The position numbers and the translations under genes are program-made. A model generated the notes under the pieces. That model was not told the origin of the DNA, did not search any database, and was given only the letters and a program-made list of their open reading frames with translations. From contig NZ_JAAGVY010000015.1 in NCBI RefSeq assembly GCF_010686655.1, positions 1-64,000 on the forward strand: a stretch of 64,000 nt of DNA, in the 5' to 3' direction. The stretch comes from Cryomorpha ignava. Lineage in GTDB: Bacteria; Bacteroidota; Bacteroidia; Flavobacteriales_D; Cryomorphaceae. This document shows positions 20,508 through 64,000 of this stretch, piece after piece (position 1 is the first letter of the stretch; every line of letters begins with the position of its first letter).

Positions 20508-20636
20508 AACAATTGCCCATTGAAAATTGCCCATTGCCAATTGCCTATTGCCCATTGCCAATTGCCCATTGCCAATTTATCTTCACCAACTTCTCATTTA
20601 CCCATTTCCTATTGCCCATTGCCCATTTATCTCCAT
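20508..20636. repeat. ATTGCCC/ATTGCCA low-complexity tandem array
   Basis: Units of 6-8 bases (ATTGCCC, ATTGCCA, ATTTCC) are repeated about a dozen times. Plus-strand frames of 61-75 codons run through it but encode only the repeat. A shorter similar stretch (TTGCCCCATTGCTCATTG) occurs at about 59312. Confidence 0.7.
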
Positions 20637-32560: not shown

Positions 32561-32990
32561 AATCCTATCTTTTATCTTACTGATTATGAGCTTCAACCTG
32601 GTTGCTCAAAATGTGCCGGAAGTAAATTGGACAAATTTAATGGATATCACTTTCAAGGATATTTATCTTGAAAAGGATGATATTTACGTCTATTACCCGC
32701 TTTTTGGCGAAAAGCAGAAAAAACATGATGGACAAACAATTCAAATAACAGGTTACATCATTCCCATAGATGTAGAACAAAACCAATACGTTTTATCCGC
32801 ATTCCCATTTAGTGCTTGTTTCTTTTGCGGAAACGCAGGCCCCGAATCTGTCATGGCGGTTTACTTTCAAGGCAATACACGCGTTTTTAATACCGACGAG
32901 CGACTAAAGCTAGAAGGTACGCTTGAACTAAATGACACAAATGTTGACGAGCTGGTTTATGTTCTGCGCAACGCGCGAGTTAAGCCTTAG
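32550..32990 (+). CDS. small exported protein with CxxC, DUF3299-like
   Basis: The 146-residue protein has signal peptide MKIRILSFILLIMSFNLVAQ. The mature domain includes VNWTNLMDITFKDIYLEKDDIYVYYPLFGEKQKKHDGQTIQITGYIIPID and AFPFSACFFCGNAGPESVMAVYF, an OB-like beta structure with a CxxC pair that could bind metal or be redox-active. The layout recalls DUF3299 proteins found with Zrg-type ABC transporters. The first 11 bases overlap the permease gene, indicating coupled translation. Its last 11 bases overlap the converging gene on the other strand. Confidence 0.72.
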   Translation: MKIRILSFILLIMSFNLVAQNVPEVNWTNLMDITFKDIYLEKDDIYVYYPLFGEKQKKHDGQTIQITGYIIPIDVEQNQYVLSAFPFSACFFCGNAGPESVMAVYFQGNTRVFNTDERLKLEGTLELNDTNVDELVYVLRNARVKP

Positions 32991-34518
32991 CAACTATTTT
33001 GCGTGTGGTTTTTTTCTTAGTGGGCTTTACAGATTTTTGATTTTTAGCATTTATCCATTCCTCAATACGCACTACTTCATGCGAAAATGGTGTCCATTTA
33101 TAATCAGAATCTCTTTTTAATTCCTGTAAGTTTTCTGCAATAACTGGCAGCGTTACTTCAAAGTCGTAGTTACGTGCTTTTAACTTTTTAAATATTCTGA
33201 TTAAAAGCTTATCGCGTTTTCCTAAAGAATGATCAGCCTTTATCTCTTCCAGGTTTTTAAAGGCTTCTTTTATTGATTTATCCGCGATTTTTGGGTGGGT
33301 ACTTAAAATATCAATTCCGGATATCAATAGTAGAAAATTGATGCCCAATTGAGTTTCGAAGGGAATACTTGCTGTAGGATTTGCTTTGGAGAATAAAAAT
33401 TTCGCCGCAGTTAAAGGTTTGTCATTTAAGTATAGAAATGCGCCATTAAAAAATTCGTATTGCGCCGTGGCGTAAGGGAGACTTGTAATGTATCTGGAAC
33501 GACTTCGCAGATCCAGAAGGCTTTTTATTTCACTATAGTTTCCGTTATAAAAATCAAGAAACATTATTTTAGAAGAAATCAAATAATGCTCGTAATCACT
33601 TTTCTTAAATAGGTTAGCCGTTTCACTAAATATTTCTTTTGCTTTTTTATAATTCTCTATTAATACTTCGCACTGCGCAATCTTTAGCAATATTTGCGCT
33701 TCGCGCTCAGAGCTTTGCAAAGGAGCTTTTGATCGCACAATTTCTAAAACATCACGGTATTTTTTAACCGCTCCACTATAATCTTTTTTGAGTTTCAGGC
33801 TCTCACCCTCAATAAGCCATAAAAAGTAGGTAACCGAATATAGATCACTTTTTTTGGAAATATCTTTTACTTCTTTAAGACCATTTTCAATCGCTGCCTT
33901 AAAAGCCTTCGGTAAAGGTAAACCAGTGTGCAAAGACACATTTTGATAATGTTTTCGAGCTTTATGAAGGCCAGTGCGTTGCTCTTCGAGGTCAATTAAT
34001 TTTTGGTCGTATTGATCGTATTCTTTAACATCAGCATTTAAAACGCTTTTTAATTTTAAAAGCTCATAACCTTCTATCACCTGGTCTATTTCTTCATATT
34101 TCGTAGATCTCGATATGATCTCATCTAGCAAAAAGTTAGCATTTTCTAAAAGTCCTTTTTTGAGGAAGATTTCGGCCAGAATCAATTTTTTCCTGCCGGT
34201 GGCTTTATTTCTAAAGCTATTGCTATACTCAAATTGCTTATCGAGGTTGATATCCAGAAGTAACGCTTCGTGAATTAAATTACGCGTTGCACGGTAGAAA
34301 ACAGAAAGATTATCTGTTTTGGTTTCGAATCCAATGGTTTTTAAAATTTCAACTTCCGACTTTTCAGGAAATTCTGATATTGCCTTAATAAAATCGTTCG
34401 ATTTTAAAACCTGAGAAGTGTTTACCGTTGGCATGCTCGCTATATGAGCCTCAATGCTATTTAACTCACTTTTAGAGCTGGTAATTATTATTTCTCTGAT
34501 TTCTTTATATCTGTCCAT
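32980..34518 (-). CDS. helical-repeat (TPR-like) protein, unknown function
   Basis: The 512-residue protein has no signal peptide. It is almost wholly helical, with TPR-like pairs such as RKKLILAEIFLKKGLLENANFLLDEII, SVTYFLWLIEGESLKLKKDYSGAVKKYRDVLEIV and AQILLKIAQCEVLIENYKKAKEIFSETANLF. The C-terminus is very basic (KPTKKKTTRKIVAKA), which could bind nucleic acid or simply aid solubility. It converges with the CxxC exported protein, overlapping by 11 bases. I do not recognise a named family. Confidence 0.7.
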   Translation of the reverse strand: MDRYKEIREIIITSSKSELNSIEAHIASMPTVNTSQVLKSNDFIKAISEFPEKSEVEILKTIGFETKTDNLSVFYRATRNLIHEALLLDINLDKQFEYSNSFRNKATGRKKLILAEIFLKKGLLENANFLLDEIISRSTKYEEIDQVIEGYELLKLKSVLNADVKEYDQYDQKLIDLEEQRTGLHKARKHYQNVSLHTGLPLPKAFKAAIENGLKEVKDISKKSDLYSVTYFLWLIEGESLKLKKDYSGAVKKYRDVLEIVRSKAPLQSSEREAQILLKIAQCEVLIENYKKAKEIFSETANLFKKSDYEHYLISSKIMFLDFYNGNYSEIKSLLDLRSRSRYITSLPYATAQYEFFNGAFLYLNDKPLTAAKFLFSKANPTASIPFETQLGINFLLLISGIDILSTHPKIADKSIKEAFKNLEEIKADHSLGKRDKLLIRIFKKLKARNYDFEVTLPVIAENLQELKRDSDYKWTPFSHEVVRIEEWINAKNQKSVKPTKKKTTRKIVAKA

Positions 34519-34820: not shown

Positions 34821-37800
34821 TTAATTCACAATGATTTTTTGAGACTTTGTAAATTGATTGTTAGACAAGGTGATTAAATATGCCCCTGACGATATTCTGC
34901 TCGGTAGGTTAATAGTTTGATACGCGTTTTTAGCCTCGTATTTCAGCTTTAGTAAAACGCTGCCTGTGGTAGAAGTTATATGCACTTGCCACTCTGTACT
35001 ATCGCCCATTTTGCTATTGCTGATAATATTTATTTGATTATCACCCTTCGTAGGATTCGGATATACTATAAAATCGAAATTGTCTATGGCTGTTTGCTCC
35101 TTATCAAACAAAACAGAAACTACATCTGAATATTCATATACACCATCGTAGTCAATTTGCTTTAAACGATAATAGTTCATTCCCTGTAATGGTTCTCTGT
35201 CTATTTCTGAATAAAAGAGCATTCGGTTTGATGTGCCTGCACCGTTTACTACGGCAATAGTTTCAAACTTTAGGTCTGCATCGGCTCTTTGTATTTCAAA
35301 AAATTCATTGTTAATCTCTGTGGAAGTTATCCAGTTTAAATTTACTAATGATCCACTTGCCGAAGCCTCAAAACTCAATAGTTCAATAGGGAGCGGAGTA
35401 ATACTGCTTGCATTCGCCAAAGCTATAAACTCTCCATCCCCAATCGATACATTGTTAAATCGCGCAACGTATCCCGACATGATTTCACTCGCGTTAATTA
35501 TACGGGCACCGTTGAAATTCTGGGCGTCAGGATTTCCGTGTATTAATAATTTTAAATCGTTAACACCGAAATCTGCAGCATTCAGTGCTGTGTTAAATCT
35601 AATCAATATTTGAAAACCGTCTATGCTTCCGGTTTTCGAAAAGTGCCATACTCTTCCAGACCTTTCTACTACGCCGTTTGGAAGACTGGCATTGCTCCAT
35701 GGCCATATTTCACTTAGTGCTACATTGTTGTGACCCCAAAATGCAAATGAGTTGTTTGTAATGATTGAAGGTGTCTTGATTCTCAAAATTGAGCTGCCCT
35801 GCGAGTCTGTATGGGTATCAACCGTGCTGGCATTTAATTGTCCAATTCCAGCTATATCATTATCCAAACCAGTGTTTAATTCAACGAGCTGTCCGGTATT
35901 TAATGGAATATTATATTTTCCGGAAAGATAATTTTCGAGTATTTTTCTCCTGGTTTCATTAACCGGGGCGTCACTAAAATGAATCATTTCGGCCAGATAG
36001 CCTTTAAAGTATCTTCCACTAGTTGAGCTGTTATCATGATAGCGCGCATCTCCATCGGCTCCACCTAAACTTATAGCGCCTGAATGAGAGTATATTCTGC
36101 CACATGATCCGGTTTCAGTTCTTTGTCCGAGCTCTCCATTTACATAAACACGCAGTTTATTGGTTGCATCTTTATCAAATAAACATTCTACTACGTAGGC
36201 AGTATTCGGTAATAATCCGTCATAACGCGCATACCGTGCAGGACCAAAGCCGCTTCCCCAAGGAGATTCAGAACCATCATTTGGATTATTCCAGGCATGA
36301 AAATAAAGCGATCCATCCTGAATGTATATAGCAAGGCCCCGGCTGCCACCTCCTTGTTTATATATTGTATGCCACCCGTTTACCGAGACCCCAGTTTTAA
36401 TTACCATAAAATACGATTTATTTACAACATAAGGAGCGATATTAATTAAACCACTATTACTTATTTTGTACATATCCCCACCATCAAAATTCATCGTCTT
36501 TTTGCCATTGATCAAATTGGATGTCGTTTGGATATTTGCTCTTCGGCCCTCGGTATTCTGATAAATGTCTATATTTTGTGGACTAAAATTTGTCAATATT
36601 TGAAGCGACGAATTATGTGAACCTGATTGCCGGTTAATATCGAGCCAGAAAATATTGTCGCTATCTTTTCCAACTCCGGCCGCACCCTTCCACTCAAAAG
36701 TAGAATAATCTTTAATGGTATAAACGTGCCTTGTATTTGTTCCAACGTTGGCATTTGAAGCTCCGGTTATTTCAAACTCTACCGTTTCATCGTCTTCAGC
36801 AATACCATCTTGTTGCACAAAGAAGTTTATGGGATATCCAAGCGTATCTCCGGGCGGGATAATAATTGTAGCCGGGAAAGTTAATTCATAATCCGGACCA
36901 TAACTCGCAGCCGTCGTTAATAGTTCTGTTTTGGTATAGCTTACCGAAATCGGTTTAGAGCTGGGTTTATCTAATTCAATAAGAATTAGGGGGGTGCCGT
37001 TGGTTTCATAATTTTGAGAGGTTACCGATGTGAATTCTATCGTGGGCGGAGGGTCATCGTCCAGTATCTCTACAGTATGAAAAAGTATAGAGCTTGCTTC
37101 AGATCCCGCTCCAGCAATGTAGTATAGCTGAAACTTTATAAATTCATTTACTTCGTCAATGTCATCATCCAGAATATCTACCGTAACAGATTTAATGGAT
37201 TCTCCCGGGGCGAAAACTACAGTTTTATATACCGGATAAGTATAATCCTCATTGGCGATGGCAGTGGTAGATGTTCCCAAATTGATCTTTACTCTTGCCG
37301 AAGCTGTCCCTGCTGTGCTACCTGTTCTTACTATATCAATTGAATGGCTTCCTACGCCCTCCAGTGCCTGACTGGTAGACTGTGCAAAACTGAGCTTTGG
37401 GGGCGGATCATTATCGTAGATTGTAAATGTATGCTGGCTCGGTGTCCCCATACCCACACCTGTAGTAGTGTTGCTGCCGATTTCCAAATTTATGTAGAAA
37501 CTTTCGGTGCTGGGATTGTCCTCTAATACTATGTCATTTTTTACCCAAATGCGAATGGGAACTTGCTGAACACCAGGCGGAAAGGTTACCCCGTTACTTA
37601 CATCACTGTTTAAATAGCCGTAGTCAGTACTTCTGGTGGCAGTGCCATCTGTAAACGAAAAATCAATTTTCACCAAACTTGTAGGGATATAATTTAGCCG
37701 GGCATATACTTTGTTGACATAAACGGTACTATCCGGTGCGGGATCACCCTCTACGGCAAATGCCTCGCTATTCGCAAAAGACACTTGCGGTTTTAGAACC

Positions 37801-39245
37801 CCTATGGTCATGAAAGAATTATCAATCACATTTACTTTGGCTTCATAAAATCCGCCTCCTGCATCGGCAAGTTCGTATGTTGTACTATTTGAAGTAGTAA
37901 AACTGGGAAAGTTAGGGCTCGTATTGTCAAAGATTAAAATATGTTTAGAAAAACCCGCAGGTAGGGGGGGGAGATCTGAAATATGGAATCGGAATTTTAC
38001 GAAAGATAAATCGCCACTTTCGTCAAATCGCCATATTCTCTCGGTACGCTTTGTGCTTCCGGGATCGTTTGGCACGTTATCTTCTGTGAGGGTTAATGGC
38101 AACCCATTGCTTCCTACAAATAAAAACTCATTTGATGTATTAAACGAAATTCCAGAATTAAATGGGCTTATTTCAAAGGGGTTTCGACCCTGACTCACGC
38201 TGTGGCGAGTAGCAGGCGAATTTGAAGTCTGTCCTATTCCAATAACATCTCTTCCATAATCTGCCTGGTGAGCATACTTATCATTTACAATAATATTTGC
38301 ATAGTATTTTGCACCGAGATAATTCTCTACGATAATGCGCTCTGCATCATTAAGCAATTTATTGTAATAGCATATTTCGGCAAGTCTCCCCCGAAAAGAA
38401 TACAGCCCGGTTTGATTGTTTATAGGTCCGTGTTCGTTAAATGAATCTGAATTTACTGCCCCGATCCCGATAGCATCGGGATGACGATACACCCCGCCAA
38501 TTCCACCGTTATATTGTCCACCGTTTATTAGGGTTCCAAAATATGAACCGTTTTGGTAGCCATTTACATAGCCGTTCAATGTATTGTTTGTAGGAGCTGA
38601 GAATATATGCGAAAGTACATAAGTCGTATTCGGCTGGATTGGGCTTTTTACATAATTGTAGCCGAAAGCGGGAACATTTGGTCCCGGGTCATTATCAACT
38701 TGCTTATCGTAGGCACCCAAATATATTTCTCCATTATAAATAAAGGCATTCATTCCGCGCCATCCTCCACCTTCTTCCCACAGTATTTGGCGGCTTGTGA
38801 CATCTTCTGATGTTCTGAAAGCAAAAATCATCGTTTGCTCGTATGTTGTAGTGATGGAAGTATTAAGATCGCTACTCGAGTTTACTTTTAGCATTCTACC
38901 ATCTTCAAAGGTCACTACGGGGTATCCGTTTATCGCAGCGCTGGGATCATCGCGAAAATACGGGGGTAAGAAATTGTCGCTACTTTGTCTAAATCCTTTG
39001 TCGTTAACGGCGCTGTATGAAATATCGTTCCAAATGTCAACAGGGTCACCATCGGCAAGTGTTGTAAGTGTGCTTGCATCTAGCCATAAGCGTAAATCAC
39101 TTTGGGTTGGGGCTTGTGTATTGGGAGTTTCGTTACTTACACCCCCTGGACCCAGTTGGGAATAGGAAGAAGGTGAAATTGTAAAAAATAAAAAGAGTAA
39201 TAAAACCTGCTTAAAAAGCTGAATTACAATATTATAGGGGGTCAT
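34821..39245 (-). CDS. giant T9SS surface protein with LamG-like and Calx-beta domains, paralogue 1
   Basis: The protein has 1474 residues and is probably secreted by the type IX system. The order is: signal peptide (about 1-30); GPGGVS motif; LamG-like domain with WLDAS, GGGWRGMNAFIY and RLAEICYYN (about 50-310); a module with ENYLGAKYYANIIVNDKYAHQADYGRDVIGIG and RIWRFDESGD (about 305-485); three Calx-beta-like domains ending DNDPPP or DDDPPP (about 487-850); a second LamG-like domain (EWKGAAGVGKDSDN, GGSRGLAIYIQ, LAEMIHF, ENYLSGKYNIP); and a T9SS sorting domain (VYPNPTKGDNQ, ISSGAYLITLSN). Calx-beta domains usually bind calcium. The role is probably adhesion or glycan binding. It is adjacent to two paralogues. 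Confidence 0.85.
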   Translation of the reverse strand: MTPYNIVIQLFKQVLLLFLFFTISPSSYSQLGPGGVSNETPNTQAPTQSDLRLWLDASTLTTLADGDPVDIWNDISYSAVNDKGFRQSSDNFLPPYFRDDPSAAINGYPVVTFEDGRMLKVNSSSDLNTSITTTYEQTMIFAFRTSEDVTSRQILWEEGGGWRGMNAFIYNGEIYLGAYDKQVDNDPGPNVPAFGYNYVKSPIQPNTTYVLSHIFSAPTNNTLNGYVNGYQNGSYFGTLINGGQYNGGIGGVYRHPDAIGIGAVNSDSFNEHGPINNQTGLYSFRGRLAEICYYNKLLNDAERIIVENYLGAKYYANIIVNDKYAHQADYGRDVIGIGQTSNSPATRHSVSQGRNPFEISPFNSGISFNTSNEFLFVGSNGLPLTLTEDNVPNDPGSTKRTERIWRFDESGDLSFVKFRFHISDLPPLPAGFSKHILIFDNTSPNFPSFTTSNSTTYELADAGGGFYEAKVNVIDNSFMTIGVLKPQVSFANSEAFAVEGDPAPDSTVYVNKVYARLNYIPTSLVKIDFSFTDGTATRSTDYGYLNSDVSNGVTFPPGVQQVPIRIWVKNDIVLEDNPSTESFYINLEIGSNTTTGVGMGTPSQHTFTIYDNDPPPKLSFAQSTSQALEGVGSHSIDIVRTGSTAGTASARVKINLGTSTTAIANEDYTYPVYKTVVFAPGESIKSVTVDILDDDIDEVNEFIKFQLYYIAGAGSEASSILFHTVEILDDDPPPTIEFTSVTSQNYETNGTPLILIELDKPSSKPISVSYTKTELLTTAASYGPDYELTFPATIIIPPGDTLGYPINFFVQQDGIAEDDETVEFEITGASNANVGTNTRHVYTIKDYSTFEWKGAAGVGKDSDNIFWLDINRQSGSHNSSLQILTNFSPQNIDIYQNTEGRRANIQTTSNLINGKKTMNFDGGDMYKISNSGLINIAPYVVNKSYFMVIKTGVSVNGWHTIYKQGGGSRGLAIYIQDGSLYFHAWNNPNDGSESPWGSGFGPARYARYDGLLPNTAYVVECLFDKDATNKLRVYVNGELGQRTETGSCGRIYSHSGAISLGGADGDARYHDNSSTSGRYFKGYLAEMIHFSDAPVNETRRKILENYLSGKYNIPLNTGQLVELNTGLDNDIAGIGQLNASTVDTHTDSQGSSILRIKTPSIITNNSFAFWGHNNVALSEIWPWSNASLPNGVVERSGRVWHFSKTGSIDGFQILIRFNTALNAADFGVNDLKLLIHGNPDAQNFNGARIINASEIMSGYVARFNNVSIGDGEFIALANASSITPLPIELLSFEASASGSLVNLNWITSTEINNEFFEIQRADADLKFETIAVVNGAGTSNRMLFYSEIDREPLQGMNYYRLKQIDYDGVYEYSDVVSVLFDKEQTAIDNFDFIVYPNPTKGDNQINIISNSKMGDSTEWQVHITSTTGSVLLKLKYEAKNAYQTINLPSRISSGAYLITLSNNQFTKSQKIIVN

Positions 39246-39469
39246 GCGCGAATGTTATGTTGCGACACATTTTACTCAAAAACTGCAGGAAAGGTTACAG
39301 ATCGTCGAGTATAATCAAAGCTTCATCCCAAAAAAATATAATTCTATCCCCTTCCACTTTTAGCGGCAATATGTGATAAGCTTTTTGATAAAAGGATGAG
39401 TTAGAAATGAACGTTGCAGGCTACTAAATTTCGAATTTTATCAGGATTTGTAAAATACGCAGAAATGAA

Positions 39470-42400
39470 TTATTGAATGACAAGTTTCTTACTTTCGTAA
39501 ATTATTTCTGATTGGATTTCAATGAGATACATTCCCGGTTTTAAATCACCGTAGTTTATCTCCAATATATTTTCGCTTTCCGCGAAAGCGCCTGACCACA
39601 CCATTTTACCTTGAAGGTCAATTATTCTTACTTGCGTCAAAAACCTTTCGGCGGAAGCCGGAATACGCAATATCACCATTCCGTTTTTACTAGGATTCGG
39701 ATAGAGGAATACAGCATCTTCATCTGTTTCATTGGTGTTGAGCACCGACACCACATCTGAATAGGAGTATTGACCATCAAAATCAACTTGTTTTAATCGG
39801 TAATAAGAAATGCCAAGAAGCGGGTTTCGATCTTTTTCAAAATAAGAGATTTGACTTGTTGAGTTTCCTGCACCCGGTGTTCGTAGCATTTCTGTCCATT
39901 TTAAATCATCGCCGGCACGCTCTATCTCAAAATAATCGTTGTTGTGTTCAGTAGAGGTAGTCCACGAAAGATTCACATGATCAACCTCAAAACGGGCATT
40001 AAAAGAAAGTAACTCCACAGGAAGCGGAGAAATACTTTTTGGACTGGTATTTCCAAGCGCCACATAAGAACCGTCTGGAATGGTAACATTATCAAAAATC
40101 ACCCGAGCTCCTTCCTCAATATTTGGTTGAGTGGGCGACGGACTGAAAACGGCGGCATTACTCCAATCAGCTGCGTCATAACTCACTAAAAGTCTTAAAT
40201 ATTCCAGGCGATTGTTGGTCAAATCCGTTGCATTGCTCGATTCAGAAAAGTTCATTTCCAATGTTAAGCCTGAAGTAGAAAGATCATTATTTTCTGAAAA
40301 ACGCCAAACTCTTCCTGATCGCTCCTGAACCGCTCCGGGCAGAGCTGCGTTGGCATAAGAAAATGGCCAAGTATTCGTAAGAGATTCGTCATTGTGACCC
40401 CATGCTAAAAATTTGTTTGATCCCGAAAGTCCGGTACCCGTTACTTTTAATTGGGATTTTCCTTGAGCTACTCCGTGCAAATTCCCTGCATTCATTATTC
40501 CAATTCCGGCTACATCATTGTTATAAGTAACATACCCGCCGGTTGTATTGGTACGATCTGCGTAAGCTAAATCAAAAACCTGTTCAGAAGGGATTAAGGG
40601 CACATTAAAACGGGCAGATAAGTAATTGTGTATTATTCGAATACGGGCCGTGTTCATAGCATACCCACTTTCGTTATAATAAATCATTTCACCTATCTCT
40701 CCTTTCAGGTTCTTTCCGCTTGAGCTATTATCTGGTCCGTCTTTAAAGCGCGATTTGTTATAAATTCCGCCAATACCTATTTCATCGCTATGCACATACA
40801 GTCGGCCAACTTTTTGACCGGGTGCATTCCCATAGGTTCCCTGTAATTGGCCATTTACAAAAATACGAAGGCCGGGTGTGGAGGATGTATCATTTAAATA
40901 ATGGCAGCTTACCACATACGTACTATCGTAGTTTAACTCATTACTTTCCGCATAGCTATTATTATCCCCCCATGGAGCTAAATCACCATCTTCTCCATCG
41001 TCGTCAGTGGTATTCCATGCCTGGAAATAGAGTTTTTTATTTTGGAGATAAATATTGAGCCCTTTTTCAGTCCCCCCTTCTTCAAAAATGACCTGAGGCG
41101 TATTTTCTTTCGATAAAGATACCGTAGTAGGTTTTACAACAAAGAAAATAGATTTGCTGTCGTAGAATCCTGAAGTGTTGATGTACGGACTTTTTCCACT
41201 GGTGCTGCCGCTTACTCTTAATACTGTATTATTTCCATCAAAAGAAACGGCCTTTTGATTGTTAGTTCCCATAACTACAGTTGGTTGATAAAAACTGGTA
41301 CTTTGATTTATGTTAATAGGCCTTGTAGATATTTGGGGCACACCCGAAGTTTGACCCGGAGTTGCATTTTCCAAGTTCATCCAAAATGTATTATCTCGCA
41401 AGCGTCCTACACCTGATGCTCCTGACCATTCAAAAGGGACATAATCTTTTATAGTGTAAGTATGATTCAATCTAGATCCCAATGTGGCATTCGCCACCGG
41501 TTCCTGAAGTATAAAATGTATCGTTTCCTCCGATTCTTCTGCACCATCGCTGTACACCTGAAAGGCGACATTACCCGTATTTGAATCGTAATACAAGTAT
41601 GAGATGGTATCGTACGGCGGAAAAATAACAGATCCTGATATCTCCGCAGTATAATCAGAGTTTGATGCATTTGCACCATTTGTTGCCGTACCGCCTGTAA
41701 TTATAAATGGTACCTCGATTGTTTTGGCACTCGGACCACTTAGTACTACTACAATTCGCGGTTGGGATACTGCTTCAAATCCTTCAGAATTTGTGGCTAA
41801 AAATTCAACTTCAGGTTCCGGGTTTATGTCTACGAGATTAATGGTGTGGTTTATAATTGAATTGGAGTCTACACCAATATTACCTCCGGGTTCTAGAGTA
41901 AACTGAATTGTCTCCTCATCTTCATCAAGATTATCGGTAAAAACTTCAAACTGAACTGAAGCGGTCATATTGGTGCTATCGGGAATGATGATGTCTCTAT
42001 ATCTTCCCAAAGGAGATGTCATGTCTTGCCAGCCGGATGCATTAGGTAGTGCATAGTCTACACCGTAAGTGGCCGTACCGTTAAAGTTATCTAAAATCCG
42101 AATGGTTCTATTGTCAGATGATGTTGTAGTTCCGTTAATGCGGACATTAATTTGAGCTAATCCTGTACCGCCAATACCTGCTTCAGTAATAGTATCGTTT
42201 ATTGCAGCTTCAAAAGTTGCTTTAGGATCGGGGTCGTCGTCGTATATTTTATAGACTAAAGTATCACGCTGGCCAATATTATAACCGCCATCGGTGGCTG
42301 CGGGGTTGAGTATGATTAAAAACTCTTTTACAGGAGGGATATCAATTACAAGGTCATTTATTATATTAAAAGATATCGATCCTGTTCTGCTCGGTGGAGT

Positions 42401-44164
42401 GATTGTAATAGAAGTGTTTGGCGAAGTATAATCAGTAGGGTTTATTGCAGTTAATGATGAGAAAAGAACACCTGTATTGATGATAGAACTTTGAAGAGGA
42501 GTATAGTTTAATTCCACTTCTACACTCGCAACAGTTGGTGTGAGGTCATCATTTTCAAGGGCATAAGCAGAGTTCTGCTTAAATTGAATGGTCGGTTTCA
42601 CTGCTGCAATGGTAAAATATGCTCCATCGGGAATAAGATATGTGCCTAGATAAACACCACCGATAAGTGGTAATTCAATTATTTTAGGCGAAACAGAAAA
42701 GTTTGGAAGCGGACCGTTACTGTTGTCAATTAAAACCACTAGTTTTTGGTTTTGAGTAGGAAGTGTTGGTAAATCTGCAGGATTTAATTTGAAAGTGAGT
42801 TGTTGATTACCTTGAGTTCCGTCAAAGCCGGTTCTGTCAAATCGCCATGTTCTGCGTAAGCGTTGTACACTAGAACTATCAGGAGTGTTCTGATTTGTCC
42901 ACTGATTTGGATTGCCATTATGACCCGTTAGTAAGTAGTGCGACCCCGGCTCATATTTAAAGGCGTTGTCCATATTGCCAACACTTATTTCGAAAAGATT
43001 ATCGCCTTTGCTGTAATTGTGATCATCACCATTCGCATCTGCTCCAATACCTATTACATCGTGACCATAATTAGCTTGAAATTCATACTTATCATTCGCT
43101 ATTACATTGGCAAAATACTTGGCAGCCAGATAGTTTTCTACTATAATTCGCTCTGCGGTGTTTAGACTGTAAGCGTAATAGCATATTTCTGCAATTCTGC
43201 CTTCAAAAGAAAATTGACCGGTAAGGCCGAACGGCTTCACTTGTGTATTATTGCAGGGAATATGACCTTTACAATCTCCAACAGGAGAAGTCCAGTCATA
43301 CATAGAAGATTCGTGAGCAGTCAATGAATTTACTCCGCCGATTCCAATTGGATCATTCTGCTTTTTTATTGCTCCCACTCCAAAACTTCCGTTGGGATGG
43401 TCAGCACCAACTTGCAAGGGTCCGAAATTTTCGCCGTTTATTGATCCCTTTAAAGATTGATTATCAGTAGCCGTATCGATAGTGGTCGTATTGGCGACAT
43501 TCAAAACGAGTGATACTATATATGTTGTATTCGGCTGAATGGTCGTTTTTTTATAAGAATATCCAAATCCCAAGCCTTCTATATCATAGACTCCGATATA
43601 TAATTCAGAATTGTAGATGTATATTCCAAGACCTCTCCATCCTCCTCCTTGCTCCCAAAGAAATTGACGCGAGGCAATGTCATTTCCGGTTCGGAAAGCA
43701 ATAAGTACAGTTCTTTGTTTTGTGATACCATTTGATTCTGATACCAAATCAGTATTAAGGTTTGCATTAGCAGTGAGCCCCATTAAAAGCATTCCACCAT
43801 CTTCAAAAGAAACAACAGGATTCCCATTTATACTAAATGCAGGATCGCTCCTAAAAAGAGGTGCTGTAAAAAACTCACTATAAGTTATGCCGTTATGAGA
43901 TTCAATCCAAATGGCTTCGTCGATCTCTGTTGAATTTGACTTGTCTAGCCAGAGCGTAACCTCCGATCCATCGGGCTGCGTGGGCGAAGCAAGATCGCCG
44001 GCGTCAAGCCACATCCGGCAATTTCTCACAGGATCAGAATCATTGCTCACCCCTCCCGGACCCGATTGGGCTATACCCAAAAAAGGCAATATTAAAAATA
44101 GAAATAGAAACCAAATAGGAAGTCTCACCATTTTAAATTGTTGATCGTCAATTTTTAATTTCAT
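39470..44164 (-). CDS. giant T9SS surface protein with LamG-like and Calx-beta domains, paralogue 2
   Basis: The protein has 1564 residues and the same architecture as its two neighbours: signal peptide, GPGGVSND, LamG-like (RMWLDAGDL, GGGWRGLGIYIYN, RIAEICYYAYSL), ENYLAAKYFANVIANDKYEFQANYGHDVIGIG, Calx-beta modules with DDDPDP, a second LamG-like half from about residue 911 (EWSGASGVGRLRDN), and a C-terminal sorting domain (LYPNPSKNGMV, LKPGMYLIEI). ATG at 44164 is the longest start; ATG at 44131 (MVRLPIWFLFLFLILPF) gives a more usual signal peptide. Expression, substrate and ligand are unknown. Confidence 0.85.
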   Translation of the reverse strand: MKLKIDDQQFKMVRLPIWFLFLFLILPFLGIAQSGPGGVSNDSDPVRNCRMWLDAGDLASPTQPDGSEVTLWLDKSNSTEIDEAIWIESHNGITYSEFFTAPLFRSDPAFSINGNPVVSFEDGGMLLMGLTANANLNTDLVSESNGITKQRTVLIAFRTGNDIASRQFLWEQGGGWRGLGIYIYNSELYIGVYDIEGLGFGYSYKKTTIQPNTTYIVSLVLNVANTTTIDTATDNQSLKGSINGENFGPLQVGADHPNGSFGVGAIKKQNDPIGIGGVNSLTAHESSMYDWTSPVGDCKGHIPCNNTQVKPFGLTGQFSFEGRIAEICYYAYSLNTAERIIVENYLAAKYFANVIANDKYEFQANYGHDVIGIGADANGDDHNYSKGDNLFEISVGNMDNAFKYEPGSHYLLTGHNGNPNQWTNQNTPDSSSVQRLRRTWRFDRTGFDGTQGNQQLTFKLNPADLPTLPTQNQKLVVLIDNSNGPLPNFSVSPKIIELPLIGGVYLGTYLIPDGAYFTIAAVKPTIQFKQNSAYALENDDLTPTVASVEVELNYTPLQSSIINTGVLFSSLTAINPTDYTSPNTSITITPPSRTGSISFNIINDLVIDIPPVKEFLIILNPAATDGGYNIGQRDTLVYKIYDDDPDPKATFEAAINDTITEAGIGGTGLAQINVRINGTTTSSDNRTIRILDNFNGTATYGVDYALPNASGWQDMTSPLGRYRDIIIPDSTNMTASVQFEVFTDNLDEDEETIQFTLEPGGNIGVDSNSIINHTINLVDINPEPEVEFLATNSEGFEAVSQPRIVVVLSGPSAKTIEVPFIITGGTATNGANASNSDYTAEISGSVIFPPYDTISYLYYDSNTGNVAFQVYSDGAEESEETIHFILQEPVANATLGSRLNHTYTIKDYVPFEWSGASGVGRLRDNTFWMNLENATPGQTSGVPQISTRPININQSTSFYQPTVVMGTNNQKAVSFDGNNTVLRVSGSTSGKSPYINTSGFYDSKSIFFVVKPTTVSLSKENTPQVIFEEGGTEKGLNIYLQNKKLYFQAWNTTDDDGEDGDLAPWGDNNSYAESNELNYDSTYVVSCHYLNDTSSTPGLRIFVNGQLQGTYGNAPGQKVGRLYVHSDEIGIGGIYNKSRFKDGPDNSSSGKNLKGEIGEMIYYNESGYAMNTARIRIIHNYLSARFNVPLIPSEQVFDLAYADRTNTTGGYVTYNNDVAGIGIMNAGNLHGVAQGKSQLKVTGTGLSGSNKFLAWGHNDESLTNTWPFSYANAALPGAVQERSGRVWRFSENNDLSTSGLTLEMNFSESSNATDLTNNRLEYLRLLVSYDAADWSNAAVFSPSPTQPNIEEGARVIFDNVTIPDGSYVALGNTSPKSISPLPVELLSFNARFEVDHVNLSWTTSTEHNNDYFEIERAGDDLKWTEMLRTPGAGNSTSQISYFEKDRNPLLGISYYRLKQVDFDGQYSYSDVVSVLNTNETDEDAVFLYPNPSKNGMVILRIPASAERFLTQVRIIDLQGKMVWSGAFAESENILEINYGDLKPGMYLIEIQSEIIYESKKLVIQ
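39573..39590. repeat. CGCTTTC-C-GCGAAAGCG palindrome inside gene
   Basis: CGCTTTCCGCGAAAGCG is the palindrome of the 9257 and 50958 sites with one extra C. It lies within the sorting-domain part of paralogue 2, so it is tolerated within coding DNA. Confidence 0.4.
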
Positions 44165-44329
44165 CGCAAATCAATATACGAAACTAATTGATTCATTTGG
44201 TTATTAACCGGAGTTTAACAATTCATTTGAATTGATGCCAAGCCTGTTCTGCAGAAAGCAGACCACTCCATACAGATTCTAAAGTTTTTAGGTTGTATAA
44301 GATTAGGGAGTGTCATGGCAATTAGAAAG

Positions 44330-44349
44330 TGCCAAAGCGAACTTTGGCA
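44330..44349 (-). terminator. hairpin after third giant surface-protein gene
   Basis: TGCCAAAG (44330-44337) and CTTTGGCA (44342-44349) pair perfectly around CGAA. On the minus strand the stem is followed by only a short T-rich tract (CTTTCTAAT), so termination strength is uncertain. It lies about 26 bases after the stop codon of the gene. Confidence 0.5.
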
Positions 44350-44375
44350 TTGACTTGTTTTTAGAAGAACGAAAC

Positions 44376-47300
44376 TTAATTTTTTATGACAAGTTTCTTA
44401 GCATCGTATAAGATGTCACTTTTAAGCTCTACGATGTAAACACCCATTGGAAGATCACCATATTTTAATTCAAAAAGGGTGGCATCACTTCTCAATTTTG
44501 TTTCCCAAACCTTAACTCCCGAAAGATTGTAGAAAGATACGTTTGTGCTTGTTCGCGAATATGCATATGGAATACGCACAAAAACAGATCCCATACTACT
44601 TGGGTTTGGATAAAGAAATACGTCTTCATTACTCTCCATTTCTGAATTCACTACCGATACTACGTCAGAGTATTTGTATACGCCGTCGTAATCAACTTGT
44701 TTGAGGCGGTAATAAGATATTCCCGGAAGGGGTTCGCGGTCTTTTTCTAAATAGGAGAGGGTAGTATTCGAGTTTCCGGCGCCATCTACAGTTGAAAGTT
44801 CCTTCCAGTTTAGCGATGCGTCGGCACGTTCGATAATGAAATAATCGTTGTTTATTTCGGTGGAGGTTGACCAGGTGATATCAACATAATCTGTTTCTAA
44901 ACGCGCGTTAAAATTCAAAAGTTCTACGGGAAGCGGCGAAATACTTATCGGACTTGTGTTCCCCAATGCGAAATACATACCGTTGCTCATGTTTACAGCA
45001 GAGAAAAGAGCAATGTTTCCGCTTCTGATTTCTGACACGTCATATACTGAGGCATTACTGAAATTCTGAGGATCTGAGTTGGAATGGACGAGCAGTTTTA
45101 ACAGGGAATTATCTAGGTTAAAATCAGGTGCATTGGCCGAAGCACTGAAGTTTATAAACACATCAGCAGAAGTAACCGAACCGTTTGGGCTTTCAAACAT
45201 TTTCCACACTTTACCAGATCTTTCTTGGATTCCTGATGGAAGGCTGGCATTACCGTAAGAATATGGCCAGGTGTTAATTAATTCGTCACCATTGTGACCC
45301 CAAGTCAGGAATGCGGTGTTTTGCGTAAACACAGGATCTTTAATTCTCAAAATCGCAGTCCCCTGAGCATCTCCATGGTAGGCGGTATCAGCTGCTGAAA
45401 TAATTCGCCCAATTCCAGCCACCTCATTGTTAAAATCGTTGCTGGGGTCTGCAAGATTATCAGCGAAGGCCAAGTCAAAAATTTGCCTTGTATCAGAAAC
45501 ATAAAGTGGAATGTTGTATTTGGCTGATAAATAATTCTCTATAATAATTCTGCGGGCTTCTGTCAATTGAGGCTCATGGTACATGATAAACTCGGAAAGC
45601 AAGCCTTCATATGGACAACGCCTTTCTCCAGGCTGGTTTACAGTATAGTGGACTCGTCCTTGATTTGTCGGAGCTCCTAGTCCGATATCGCCACTGTGGC
45701 CATAGAGTCGCCCTACATCGTTTGGATTTACAATGTTAGTATTCATTTCACCTTTCCGACCGTTTACATAAACCATTAAAGGCTCATCAGATTTATTGTT
45801 GTAATGGCAGGAAATAATATATTCTTGATTTGCAACAATATTTTGCGTCGAACGAGCCCAAACCGCTGAAGCCACTTTATTTGCATTTCCTCCGGAAGCC
45901 CCGTTGTCATATCCCCATGGAGATTCGGGTCCGTCATTATTATCATTCCATGCATGTAAATAAACCCTTTCGTTGTAAAGATAAATAGACAGTCCACGTA
46001 TTCCTCCACCTTGCTCGTACAACAATCTACAATTTGACGCCGAGGGAGTAGAGTTAACTCCTGCAGTTCCCATTGGTACACTTGTTGGTTTAATTACAAA
46101 ATAAAATGACTTTTTCTCCATATAACCGGCCAAATTGGTAAATGAGTCGTCGTCAATTTGATAACAGTCCGCATTTGTGCTGTTATCTATCCCATCAAAT
46201 GCCATTGATTGCCTTCCATTAATTCCATTGGCAATCAATTCAGCCCGATTATTATCTCCACCTTTTCTATTGATCTCGATATCTCTGGGTGAAAAGTTGT
46301 TTATTGCAGTTTTAATTCCCAATGGACCCATCCGGTTGGCATCAATCCAAACGATATTATCAGAATTTTTTCCAACTCCGGCAGCACCTTTCCATTCAAA
46401 TGGAGAATAATCGAGTATGGTGTATGTATGTTGACTTACGGCTCCGTTGGCTACATTTATTCCTCCGGTTAAATTGAATATAACTGTTTCATCCGGTTCG
46501 CCAACTACGTCTCCATTGTCTACATTAAAAGGCGTAGGGTATTTGAGCGTATCACCAGGCTGAAATAAAATACTACCTGTGGTTGAAGCCGTATAATCAT
46601 TGTCGTACGTAGCAGTACTAGCTCCTACATCGATTGTGTAAAAAACGGTGACGTCTCGGGCTGAAGGTCTGTCAAGCTCCACAAAAATTACGGGATCTCC
46701 TACCGACTCGTACCCTGTTTGGTTATTAGTAAAAAAATTTACTTGGGGAAGAGGGTCGTTTTCAATGATATTCAATGTGAAATTCGTGGTAGCTGAAGGA
46801 TCAATAGCGATATCTAAAGCTCCTTCCAGAACCAGGTTAACTGTCTCGTCATTTTCATTGATGTCGTCATCAAGTATTTCAACTCTAATTGAGTCAATTT
46901 GGCTTGAAACCAGTGCTGCAGGAAAAAATACGGTATCGACTCTATTAGCGATACTACCTTTCCATCCATCTGCCGAGTTGAGTGTGAAATCACTGTTGTA
47001 CGAGGCTGTTCCTTGGTTTGGGCTCGCCTTTCTTCTCACCCGTATCTTCGAAGATGTACTGCTCATGTCACTTGGATCTCCGGTTCGCTGCACTTTTACA
47101 TAGTAAAAGCCTGCTCCTTCAGAGACATTCCCGCTGGAGCTTACAAAGCTCCCGTTTGGTGGTGGGTCATCATCTAAAATTGAAACAACTAGGGTATCTC
47201 TGAATCCTACGCTTAGCCCCGAAGTGGTATTTGCTCCATTTTGCAGAATAATCAGAAACTGTTCTGTTGATTGGTCGTCAGCATCATCGTCGTTTACAAT

Positions 47301-49016
47301 TTTAAAATCGAGTGTTGCAAAGCGCTGGGAGGGAAGAATTGTTAAACCATCCGCCTGATCTGTTGCGTCATAAGAATAATCTGCCGGTTCGGCAGTTTGG
47401 CCAGCATCAACAAAAATATAATCAATGGTATTTCCAGTCGCAGACAATGGCTCGTAATTGAGTTGAACCCCCACAGAAAACGTAGTAGTAGCATTTGGCA
47501 ACGGATCAGCTTCAAGAGCAGAAGATTCCGAAAATGTAAATTCAACCTCTGGTTTGAGCCAGGCTAGTGTATAGAAGGAGTCGTCTTGAAAATCAAATTC
47601 TATTTCATGATTTACCCCCGATATAAGTCGAATTTCTTTAACGACAGTTGAGGCCAATGAAAAGTTAGGGAAATTGGCGTTGGTACTGTCTATCAGCATA
47701 ACCAATTTAGTAAATCCGGCAGGGGCAGGGGGCAAGTCGGTTGATTTCACTTTGTATTTTACAGTCCCGAAATTTGCTGTTTTATCAACTCTCCAGGTTC
47801 TCTGCAAACGTTGGATGTTGACAGAATTCCCAGGCACGTCAGCACCTGTAAGAACCATATTTCCACCATTATGGCCTGTAAGAAAGTAGTGATTTGAGTT
47901 AGCAGTTGTAGCGTTTTCAGATATTAAAAACGGATTTCGACCCTGGCTCAAATTGTGCCTGTTGCCTACCTGATTTGTTTGTTGACCAATACCAATTACA
48001 TCATTTCCATAGAGTGCCTGATGGATATATTTGTCATTATTAATAAGGTTTGCAAAATATTTAGAGCCCAAATAATTTTCAGTTATTATCCGCTCAGTTT
48101 CTGAAAGCAAATCATTGTAGTAGCAAAACTCGGCTAACCTACCCTGAAAGGTAAAGCTTCCGGTATTACTGCAAAAAATCCCGGTTTGGTCTACAAAATC
48201 ATCATTTACAGCTCCCAAGCCGATTGGGTTTGGATGAAAGTGAAGCGAACCAATTCCATTGTTACCATTTACTGTAAGGTCTCCATCGTTTAGCTCCATA
48301 TTGTCAAATTCCAATCCATTGAGCCAACCTTTGATAAAGTAATTGGCATTGGCATTGACCACACCTTGGTTTTGAGCATAGAATTGTGCCGATAAAATAT
48401 ATGTGCTGTTGGCTTGGACAGGGGTTTTTACGTAAGTATACCCCCATTGTGGAGTGCCGTCACCATCTGTCTGGGTGCCATTGTTGTTAACACCACTTTG
48501 ATTTAAGTCGTAAGCACCTACATGAATATTTCCATTTTGAATGTGAACGTTGAACCCACGCCAGCATCCGCCTTCCTCATATAATACTTGTTTTGAAGTC
48601 ACATCCGTGGATGTTCTGAAAGCAAAGAAGACGGTCTTTGTAAAAGTTATAGTTGCAAGGTTCAGATCAGTGGTAGATTGCATGAGCAAAAAACGACCAT
48701 CATCAAAAACCACAACCGGAAAGCCATTTATCGTATTTGCGGCATCGTCTCTGAAGTAGGGTGGCAGTGAGGAGTTTAACGGAGTTGCTTTGTCATTTAC
48801 ATTTGAAAGGCTCACATCAGGCCAATCCACAAGGTCATCTCCATCTGCAAGCGAAGTTAAGGTGCTCGCATCAAGCCAAATGCGGCATGTGCTCTGAGAA
48901 GGAGTTTCGACACTCACTCCTCCTGGTCCCTTTTGTGCGAAAAGAGAAATGGGAAAAATAAATAGAGAAATGAAAAGTAGGTTTATTTTCAAGATTGATG
49001 TTTTGGTTAGTTTCAA
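44376..49016 (-). CDS. giant T9SS surface protein with LamG-like and Calx-beta domains, paralogue 3
   Basis: The protein has 1546 residues with the same plan as the two genes downstream: signal peptide MKLTKTSILKINLLFISLFIFPISLFAQ, GPGGVSVE, LamG-like (RIWLDASTL, GGCWRGFNVHIQN, RLAEFCYYNDL), ENYLGSKYFANLINNDKYIHQALYGNDVIGIG, Calx-beta modules (DDDPPP), a second LamG-like half from about residue 870 (EWKGAAGVGKNSDN, GGIRGLSIYLYN), and a T9SS C-terminal domain (LYPNPSSMGSV, LPMGVYIVEL, KKLVIKN). The start is TTG at 49016, preceded by AGGAAG; I see no better ATG that keeps the signal peptide. Transcription runs towards paralogues 2 and 1. Confidence 0.84.
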   Translation of the reverse strand: MKLTKTSILKINLLFISLFIFPISLFAQKGPGGVSVETPSQSTCRIWLDASTLTSLADGDDLVDWPDVSLSNVNDKATPLNSSLPPYFRDDAANTINGFPVVVFDDGRFLLMQSTTDLNLATITFTKTVFFAFRTSTDVTSKQVLYEEGGCWRGFNVHIQNGNIHVGAYDLNQSGVNNNGTQTDGDGTPQWGYTYVKTPVQANSTYILSAQFYAQNQGVVNANANYFIKGWLNGLEFDNMELNDGDLTVNGNNGIGSLHFHPNPIGLGAVNDDFVDQTGIFCSNTGSFTFQGRLAEFCYYNDLLSETERIITENYLGSKYFANLINNDKYIHQALYGNDVIGIGQQTNQVGNRHNLSQGRNPFLISENATTANSNHYFLTGHNGGNMVLTGADVPGNSVNIQRLQRTWRVDKTANFGTVKYKVKSTDLPPAPAGFTKLVMLIDSTNANFPNFSLASTVVKEIRLISGVNHEIEFDFQDDSFYTLAWLKPEVEFTFSESSALEADPLPNATTTFSVGVQLNYEPLSATGNTIDYIFVDAGQTAEPADYSYDATDQADGLTILPSQRFATLDFKIVNDDDADDQSTEQFLIILQNGANTTSGLSVGFRDTLVVSILDDDPPPNGSFVSSSGNVSEGAGFYYVKVQRTGDPSDMSSTSSKIRVRRKASPNQGTASYNSDFTLNSADGWKGSIANRVDTVFFPAALVSSQIDSIRVEILDDDINENDETVNLVLEGALDIAIDPSATTNFTLNIIENDPLPQVNFFTNNQTGYESVGDPVIFVELDRPSARDVTVFYTIDVGASTATYDNDYTASTTGSILFQPGDTLKYPTPFNVDNGDVVGEPDETVIFNLTGGINVANGAVSQHTYTILDYSPFEWKGAAGVGKNSDNIVWIDANRMGPLGIKTAINNFSPRDIEINRKGGDNNRAELIANGINGRQSMAFDGIDNSTNADCYQIDDDSFTNLAGYMEKKSFYFVIKPTSVPMGTAGVNSTPSASNCRLLYEQGGGIRGLSIYLYNERVYLHAWNDNNDGPESPWGYDNGASGGNANKVASAVWARSTQNIVANQEYIISCHYNNKSDEPLMVYVNGRKGEMNTNIVNPNDVGRLYGHSGDIGLGAPTNQGRVHYTVNQPGERRCPYEGLLSEFIMYHEPQLTEARRIIIENYLSAKYNIPLYVSDTRQIFDLAFADNLADPSNDFNNEVAGIGRIISAADTAYHGDAQGTAILRIKDPVFTQNTAFLTWGHNGDELINTWPYSYGNASLPSGIQERSGKVWKMFESPNGSVTSADVFINFSASANAPDFNLDNSLLKLLVHSNSDPQNFSNASVYDVSEIRSGNIALFSAVNMSNGMYFALGNTSPISISPLPVELLNFNARLETDYVDITWSTSTEINNDYFIIERADASLNWKELSTVDGAGNSNTTLSYLEKDREPLPGISYYRLKQVDYDGVYKYSDVVSVVNSEMESNEDVFLYPNPSSMGSVFVRIPYAYSRTSTNVSFYNLSGVKVWETKLRSDATLFELKYGDLPMGVYIVELKSDILYDAKKLVIKN

Positions 49017-53198: not shown

Positions 53199-53221
53199 GG
53201 TCTGCTAAGGCAGAAAGTGAA

Positions 53222-53602
53222 TTGCTCCGCAGCGCGGCACGGTATCTACCCTGTCGGCCGCAAAACGCAGCGTAGCTATAATTGGTTTCAATTTTAATCT
53301 ATTAGGATTTAGTGTTTTCCATCTTTTAGACCTGAATGTTTCGTCGTTTGTCAAGCCGAAGGGTCGATACCCTTCGGAGCGGGTTGATACCCTTTGGAGC
53401 GGGTACTCTTCTGAGCGCGTCTGCCAACGCAACTGGTGAATTGGTTTGCAGCTCGGCACGGTATCTACCCTGCCTGCCATAAAACGCAGCGTAGCTATAA
53501 TTGGTTTCAATTTTAATCTGTTAGGAGTTAGTGTTTAAATCTTTTAGACCTGAATGTTTCGTCATGCGTCAAGCCGAAGGGTCGATACCCTTCGGAGCGG
53601 GG
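53222..53602. repeat. 219-bp-period direct duplication of a non-coding repeat
   Basis: Two copies of about 162 bp (53222-53383 and 53441-53602) share GGCACGGTATCTACCCTG, AAAACGCAGCGTAGCTATAA, TTAGACCTGAATGTTTCGTC and a perfect hairpin CCGAAGGGT-CGAT-ACCCTTCGG near the end. A partial third unit of the last segment follows copy one. The frame of 101 codons across it only reflects the repeat. The second copy ends 24 bases before the rhomboid stop. Confidence 0.75.
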
Positions 53603-55128: not shown

Positions 55129-55216
55129 TCTTTTTTACTTTGCATTGGGATGTGACTTTATATTTCGATAAATCTAAACGTTAATCAATTACTCTTATTG
55201 ATATGACTTTCTCAAG

Positions 55217-55321
55217 ATAAATTCCCCGCGATAAATCGCGTGTACTTTCTCATAAATAAATTCCCCGCGATAAATCGCGTGTACTTTCTCATGAATAAAT
55301 TCCCCGCGATAAATCGCGAGG
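55217..55321. repeat. three 39-bp palindromic tandem units
   Basis: AATTCCCCGCGATAAATCGCG occurs starting at about 55220, 55259 and 55298 with a period of 39 bp. Between units is TGTACTTTCTCAT(A/G)AAT. Each unit holds the palindrome CGCGAT-AA-ATCGCG. The last unit ends one base before the stop codon of the TPM gene. It is not a CRISPR array: there are no unique spacers. Confidence 0.8.
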
Positions 55322-62677: not shown

Positions 62678-64000
62678 TTACTTTTTCTTGTTATCGCTTT
62701 CGTCTTCACTGTCGTCTGCGCTATCAACTTTGCTTTCGCTTTCGTCCTCGCTTTCGGCTTTGCCTTCGCTTTCAACTTTTTTGCTTTCGGTTTTAGCGCT
62801 TTCGGCTTTGCCTTTGCTTTCAGTTTTAGCTTTGCTTTCGGTTTCGGTTTCTGTTTCGGTTTCGGCTTTGCTCTTGGTTTCACCTTTACTTTCGGTTTTG
62901 CCTTTGCTTTCGCTTTCGCCTTTTTCCATTTCTTCTTTCAGTCCGGCAAGTACATTCAAGTCACCAAGAGTCGTTTTCTCTTGCTTGCTGTTGATGTCTT
63001 TCAAAGCTTTTGAAGACTGCTTTGATTGCGTTTTGCGATCACTGCTTTCCTTCGCTTTAGTATGTTTCGGATCTTCTTCAAAAGTACGGGTATGAGAAAC
63101 CATTATTCTACGGCTGTTCTTGTTAAACTCAAGTACAATAAAGTCGAGTTTATCTTCAATTGCAGCATTAGAACCATCTTCTTTACGCAAGTGTTTTACC
63201 GGCGCTACTGCTTCTACACCGTAAGGCATAGCGATTATTGCAGTATTGTTTTCAATGGCAGTAACTGTTCCTTCGTGTTTAGAACCTTCTGTAAAGATGG
63301 TTTCAAATACATCCCATGGATTCTCTTCAAGCTGCTTGTGTCCAAGGCTCAATCTGCGGTTTTCTTCATCTACTTCAAGTACCACAACTTCCATTTCATC
63401 ACCGATGTTACAGAATTCTGATGGGTGCTTAATTTTCTTAGACCAGCTAAGATCAGAGATGTGTACCAATCCGTCAACACCCTCTTCAAGCTCTACAAAC
63501 ACACCAAAGTTGGTGAAGTTACGTACAGTTGATTTGTGCTTGCTACCTACCGGATATTTACCAGCGATATCGGCCCATGGATCTGGCATCAATTGCTTGA
63601 TACCAAGAGACATTTTGCGGTCTTCACGGTCAAGTGTAAGTACTACAGTTTCTACCTCGTCGCCTACGTTCAAGAAATCTTGAGCGCTGCGCAAGTGCTG
63701 CGACCATGACATTTCGCTTACGTGTACAAGACCTTCCACTCCGGGAGCAATCTCTATAAACGCACCGTAATCTGCCATTACCACAACTTTACCTTTTATC
63801 TTGCTACCCACCTGAACTTCTTCAGGTAGCGTATCCCAAGGATGCTCGCTAAGCTGCTTCAAGCCAAGAGCAATACGCTTCTTGTCGTCGTCGAAATCCA
63901 GGATTACAACATTCAGCTTTTGATCCAGCTCCACCACTTCTTCCGGGTGGTTTATGCGGCCCCAGCTAAGGTCGGTAATGTGTATAAGTCCGTCAACACC
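62678..64000 (-). CDS. rpsA: 30S ribosomal protein S1, 3' part, with low-complexity tail
   Basis: This is the C-terminal part of S1. The frame is open to the window edge, so the gene begins outside. Four S1 OB-fold repeats are visible: GVDGLIHITDLSWGRINHPEEV; YGAFIEIAPGVEGLVHVSEMSWSQ; FGVFVELEEGVDGLVHISDLSWSKKI; and a more divergent last one (EGTVTAIENNTAIIAMPYGVEAVAPVKHL). After the typical end TLGDLNVLAGLKEEMEKGE comes an added tail of about 80 residues rich in E, S, K, T and D (ETETETETES, ending KKK). The tail DNA is made of CTTTCG/GTTTCG-type 6-bp units. S1 binds mRNA at the ribosome during initiation. Confidence 0.93.
   Translation of the reverse strand, partial: GVDGLIHITDLSWGRINHPEEVVELDQKLNVVILDFDDDKKRIALGLKQLSEHPWDTLPEEVQVGSKIKGKVVVMADYGAFIEIAPGVEGLVHVSEMSWSQHLRSAQDFLNVGDEVETVVLTLDREDRKMSLGIKQLMPDPWADIAGKYPVGSKHKSTVRNFTNFGVFVELEEGVDGLVHISDLSWSKKIKHPSEFCNIGDEMEVVVLEVDEENRRLSLGHKQLEENPWDVFETIFTEGSKHEGTVTAIENNTAIIAMPYGVEAVAPVKHLRKEDGSNAAIEDKLDFIVLEFNKNSRRIMVSHTRTFEEDPKHTKAKESSDRKTQSKQSSKALKDINSKQEKTTLGDLNVLAGLKEEMEKGESESKGKTESKGETKSKAETETETETESKAKTESKGKAESAKTESKKVESEGKAESEDESESKVDSADDSEDESDNKKK

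Follow-up and report, generated by a model that had tools for sequence, protein, structure and literature searches.

Three tandem, anciently diverged T9SS cargo paralogues of Cryomorpha ignava, each with two lectin-like halves around a Calx-beta set

Three large genes stand in tandem on the minus strand of a 64,000-nt stretch of the Cryomorpha ignava genome (contig NZ_JAAGVY010000015.1, positions 1 to 64,000; hereafter the window), raising the questions of what these proteins are, how their repeated architecture came about, and whether neighbouring copies exchange sequence. A preliminary description had called them three giant minus-strand T9SS paralogues of 1474, 1564 and 1546 residues, and we found the coordinates to be exact: paralogue A at 34821..39245 (1474 aa), B at 39470..44164 (1564 aa) and C at 44376..49016 (1546 aa), the last with a TTG start at 49016 and another in-frame TTG at 48992. 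Pairwise BLASTP alignments ran end to end, with 36% identity between A and B, 41% between A and C and 38% between B and C (E = 0 in every case), and the open reading frame of A, its homology to B and C, and its matches to Calx-beta (1e-23) and Por_Secre_tail (7e-9) identified it as a two-headed T9SS cargo protein. "Giant" proved to be a relative label, since the same genome encodes T9SS cargo ORFs of up to 4701 aa. A homology search of the rest of the genome yielded no fourth full-length paralogue, the six other matches covering the near-C-terminal region only. We conclude that A, B and C form a tandem array of anciently diverged T9SS-cargo paralogues. Between genes C and B lies a terminator-like hairpin, TGCCAAAGTTCGCTTTGGCA (44330..44349, minus strand), with a weak T tract; it is a consensus match only, of a kind not enriched over shuffles, and promoter and terminator scans likewise gave no excess over shuffles.

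ORFs, Pfam and end-to-end homology show one order of parts in the three proteins: a putative signal peptide, a jelly roll with a beta module, three Calx-beta domains, a second jelly roll with its module, an FN3-like region and a type A T9SS tail. In A, the N-half (37788..39158, minus strand, as are all features of the array) consists of GPGGVS, a LamG/pentraxin-like jelly roll (38328-39158) and a second beta module (37791-38327), as judged from the half alignment and the fold of the equivalent half of C. Three Calx-beta domains follow at 36705..37790 (84 bits in Pfam against a cut-off of 27; E = 3e-16 in a sequence match to the calcium-binding Calx domains of NCX1), and after them the C-half (35400..36704), a second jelly roll and module delimited by the half alignment, with a GAAGVG opening at 36669-36686. 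The region before the sorting tail (PLPIELLSF..., 35076..35399) is probably FN3-like, being made of beta strands in the model, and the type A sorting domain (TIGR04183) occupies 34824..35066. In B, the N-half (42593..44068) and the C-half (40028..41446, GASGVG opening), both from the half alignment, flank a Calx-beta set at 41447..42592 that scores 25.8 bits, just under the cut-off of 27, and is collinear with those of A and C; the sorting domain (TIGR04183) lies at 39473..39706. The corresponding parts of C are the N-half (47550..48932, predicted structure), a Calx-beta set collinear with that of A (46413..47549; 26.5 bits, again just under 27), the C-half (44937..46412, GAAGVG opening; half alignment and predicted structure) and the sorting domain (44382..44615, TIGR04183). 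Among the paralogues, identity is highest in the FN3-like region (55-64%) and the N-half jelly roll (44-55%), falls to 31-37% in the Calx set, and is lowest on average in the sorting tail (19-44%).

A hydrophobic N-terminal stretch, read from the sequence as a putative signal peptide, ends just before GPGGVS, and the other end of each protein scored above the curated cut-off for the type A sorting domain (TIGR04183: 36.5, 37.4 and 28.4 bits in the three proteins, cut-off 23) and for Por_Secre_tail (PF18962: 36.2, 44.7 and 31.5 bits, cut-off 27). Export by the T9SS is well supported, because the genome also encodes SprA (matching almost all of the TIGR04189 model, at 2514 bits) and 150 type A sorting tails were scored in it. 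Together with the half homology and the Calx-beta domains, these sorting domains uphold the view of the proteins as T9SS cargo whose duplicated halves are joined by calcium-type domains. Cargo of type A can stay anchored or be set free, and release is the fate of a significant subset of T9SS effectors (PMC10202324).

The halves themselves were harder to name. Calx-beta and Por_Secre_tail were the only Pfam families found in the window proteins; none of the six halves matched the Laminin_G or Pentaxin models at E<=10, no other model was credible, and direct Pfam/NCBIfam search left the halves unnamed, with no catalytic model matched. A sequence search of solved structures returned matches to Calx-beta and the sorting tail only. 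DUF8202, which had been proposed along with LamG and Calx-beta, was absent from the reported Pfam/NCBIfam matches, although the library may lack a model under that name, and was not mentioned in the literature searched. Of that proposal, Calx-beta therefore stands, while "LamG" and "DUF8202" have no direct domain match behind them; kinship with LamG comes by way of relatives and of the predicted fold. Among relatives with the same opening, single-headed proteins match Laminin_G_3 (down to 4e-9) and two-headed ones match Pentaxin (4e-29). The C N-half was modelled from 19 aligned sequences of the window and the locus (pLDDT 89.8, pTM 0.92). The model has a jelly roll at about residues 1-306 and a smaller beta module after it, and the jelly roll was matched best by the arabinanase AbnA, in its domain 4 (Z 19.1, 2.5 Å over 195 residues, 12% identity); another solved entry of the same domain, 5hon, whose title gives a complex with a sugar ligand, reached Z 18.9. 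The C-half of C gave a poorer model (pLDDT 79.5, pTM 0.68) that fell in the same match group (Z 18.4), and jelly-roll matches filled the structural match lists of the halves. The models thus agree with the earlier suggestion of a glycan-binding type of fold, and predict that the halves adopt the jelly-roll fold of the LamG/pentraxin-like lectin class; this is a common fold, matched here at about 9-15% identity, and the fold match alone shows no function. Many of the structural matches were binding domains of clostridial neurotoxins (about 10-14% identity), which we read as the shared, common lectin-like sandwich; toxicity is not implied. Relatives of lineage II carry AGEQD..Q, which we take to be the pentraxin-type EQD calcium motif; at this position the window proteins read GAVND and GGADG, so that the lineage II motif is not kept.

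The GPGGVS motif directly after the signal peptide had been left unexplained. In other families of the order, GPGGVG, GPGGIG or GPAGVG stands at the same point of many T9SS proteins, where the GPGGV-type opening runs straight into the first conserved stretch, with its invariant Trp. Two relatives (G009 and G035) bear GPGGVG twice, once at the head of each half, and the window proteins have a second opening of their own: GAAGVGKDSDNIFWLD in A, GASGVGRLRDNTFWMN in B and GAAGVGKNSDNIVWID in C. Judged by these sequences, GPGGVS is the opening of the LamG-like half, not peculiar to the window proteins; it heads many single-half T9SS proteins and survives as GAAGVG or GASGVG at the second half.

Alignment of half against half, the comparison on which the proposed internal duplication hung, was significant in each protein: 29% identity over 350 aa in A (BLASTP, E = 2e-30), E = 3e-15 in B and 2e-17 in C, with a profile-profile probability of 99.9 (hhalign, E = 1.1e-33 over 411 columns). 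The Calx region gave no comparable match. In the tree of halves, the N-halves of the window family formed one clade with those of G017 and G184, members of two further families (100/100), and the C-halves formed another (100/98). Since the halves cluster by position across three families of Flavobacteriales, the trees place one duplication before the split of the families and before the tandem copies, so that in the window lineage the half doubled once and the tandem genes arose later. Three independent internal duplications were rejected, as trees pairing the halves of A or those of B failed the AU test (p = 4e-30 and 3e-58); the claim that each protein is a duplicated half is therefore right as to the halves, and the event was a single ancient one and not three.

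Other two-headed proteins have a different history. In a second set (G009, G065 and G035; 1353-1368 aa) the N- and C-halves are sisters (93/94), and a joint N or joint C clade with the first set was rejected in an AU test that used G009 and G035 (p = 5e-5 and 1e-4). Two further proteins (G074 and G125) have their halves side by side, without Calx-beta domains, and those of G074 are each other's nearest kin (99/98). Given the sister halves of the second set and of G074, two-headed forms arose, or were homogenised, more than once. In a domain-by-domain matrix of the two lineages, Calx1 matched Calx1 best, and Calx3 matched Calx1 and Calx3 about equally.

The array has a fixed place in the family. 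In six family relatives the homologous gene or genes adjoin the yebC block, or the downstream ABC genes where the contig ends there, and on contigs that span the locus the array is followed by a gene of the window's 512-aa type or by the ABC genes. The window genome has three copies and G004 two, the latter number deduced from contig ends; G003 has at least two and G005 at least one, G001, G006 and G007 have a single copy each, and G002, rated 96% complete, gave no match to the array proteins. In the tree, a B-type clade (B with G007 and G003b) and a C-type clade (C with G004Y, G005 and G003a) cross genera, and the tandem copies are therefore old, some having since been lost. We conclude that the locus, syntenic across the family with one to three copies, is a birth-and-death array. 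The ancestral half would have been a single-headed T9SS protein starting with GPGGVG. Its doubling into a two-headed gene would predate the split of several flavobacterial families, and tandem birth and death at a single locus would since have multiplied that gene and removed copies. The 512-aa protein directly downstream of the array (32980-34518, minus strand) has no Pfam match; it is kept at this site in relatives at about 26% identity, where many flanking genes are 55-80% identical, and is therefore fast-evolving.

The preliminary description had further suggested a variable coat with possible recombination between copies. Pairwise identity along the window genes showed no conversion: DNA identity is about 0.5, agreement at the third positions of shared fourfold-type residues is 0.31-0.36, and identity stays at or below 0.69 in every 50-codon stretch. 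With synonymous sites saturated and no high-identity stretch, recent gene conversion in the window was rejected, and a variable, recombining coat is not supported in this genome. The possibility of recombination fared better in two relatives. In G004, two neighbouring copies (L010 4483-4976 and L051 1-494) are 98% identical over the C-terminal 494 bp, a tract that breaks the assembly and spans the sorting end, not the heads. In G184, from another family, two copies of the N-half only precede a full two-headed gene (all at L091 1208-4640). One of the two ends in a sorting tail of its own and is identical to the neighbouring full gene over about 1.2 kb; the other, which lies upstream as the third copy of the locus, has decayed through stops and frame changes. 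Both identities may be artefacts of assembly in draft genomes. They would suit a locus where an expressed copy takes up sequence from the copies or half-copies beside it and so has its binding heads altered, but we consider such a variation system very improbable: the window copies show no exchange, the tract in G004 misses the heads, and both cases are equally compatible with ordinary duplication or conversion. A broader conjecture, which we hold to be a long shot if a somewhat better one, is that the LamG-plus-module half is an exchangeable cassette, doubled at least two to three separate times in Flavobacteriales, its heads swapped by conversion at tandem loci so that the array diversifies surface lectins.

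As to function, the reading we favour, at a probability of roughly 60%, is that of a two-headed, calcium-stiffened, glycan-binding T9SS protein serving as a bivalent lectin-type adhesin or in polysaccharide capture; calcium binding, ligand, location and adhesion we infer. The proteins would leave the cell by Sec and then by the T9SS. Three calcium-binding Calx-beta domains would act as a stalk that keeps the two LamG/pentraxin-like heads apart; the heads would bind algal or matrix polysaccharide, or the surface sugars of other cells, and the protein would work on the cell surface or after release from it. It is also conceivable, though unlikely, that the CTD is cleaved and that the freed protein binds polysaccharide as a nutrient source and plays no part in attachment. 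Release of a significant subset of T9SS effectors (PMC10202324) would fit this, as would the best solved fold match, the non-catalytic domain of a polysaccharide-degrading enzyme. Against it, we recognised neither a carbohydrate-active enzyme nor a gene of SusC/D type beside the array, and the conserved genes there appear to be housekeeping ones (yebC, plsC-like, ABC).

Two other proposals are weaker still. Large, acidic, beta-rich proteins in several divergent copies could pack on the surface as an S-layer-like coat, the heads binding each other instead of foreign glycans, and Tannerella S-layer proteins are indeed exported by the T9SS (PMC10202324). A copy number of one to three, with no match in G002, would be odd for an essential coat, however, and the array supplies just three of the 150 or more type A cargo proteins, so that we regard this idea as improbable. 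That either half should be an enzyme of ConA-like fold, a glycoside hydrolase or a lyase, seems to us scarcely credible. The fold class does include catalytic members, such as GH16, but the GH16-type E-x-D-x-x-E is absent from A and C, B has one chance-like EIDE, and no catalytic Pfam or NCBIfam match was obtained; in the lack of a convincing motif in A, B or C, a GH16-type enzyme was rejected.

The favoured two-headed glycan-binding protein has several partial likenesses, although our literature searches found nothing on LamG or Calx-beta proteins with T9SS and no characterised homologue of the window proteins. Among them are flavobacterial T9SS LamG proteins with a single head, about 610-650 aa long, which begin with GPGGVG and match Laminin_G_3 and Por_Secre_tail. 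They share the opening, the jelly roll with its module, the FN3-like region and the type A tail, and are detectably homologous to either window half, but have one head and no Calx-beta stalk. The Pentaxin-Calx-beta proteins of the second set match the whole plan, with a GPGGVG half, three collinear Calx-beta domains, another GPGGVG half and a sorting tail; they differ in their sister halves, which make their duplication or homogenisation separate, and in having kept the pentraxin-type motif. RemA and SprB, the T9SS gliding adhesins of Flavobacterium johnsoniae, are likewise large exported proteins, RemA being a lectin with a type A CTD (PMC10202324), but the likeness is one of description, and a gliding function is shown for RemA and SprB only. 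The Calx-beta domains are homologous to those of the Na+/Ca2+ exchanger NCX1, where they act as the regulatory calcium sensor of a transporter; here they would form an extracellular stalk.

The window array is thus a well-kept instance of a common type of predicted bacterial surface protein, not a new kind, and its individual parts are familiar. The motif is now explained, and the repeated two-headed duplication, together with copy exchange in relatives, is a modest surprise. Poorly annotated flavobacterial export proteins are tied together by the GPGGV start, the mark of a lectin-like half, by the repeated origin or homogenisation of two-headed forms, and by a conserved site at which genera differ in copy number. 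Should the heads bind glycans, the array would offer a ready system for how Bacteroidota diversify what their surface proteins hold.

Elsewhere in the window, a heptamer-based CAATTGC repeat of about 10 copies lies between ORFs at 20510-20627, and a 39-bp unit with a short inverted repeat, GCGATAAATCGC, recurs 2.9 times with a 96% match at 55206-55318. A short ORF at 53205-53510 is made of repeats of a GGGTCGATACCCTTCGGAGC-type unit and resembles an intergenic repeat more than a gene, and an S1-domain-like protein, so assigned by eye, is encoded at 62678-63937 (minus strand) with a long Lys/Glu/Ser-rich repeat tail at its end.
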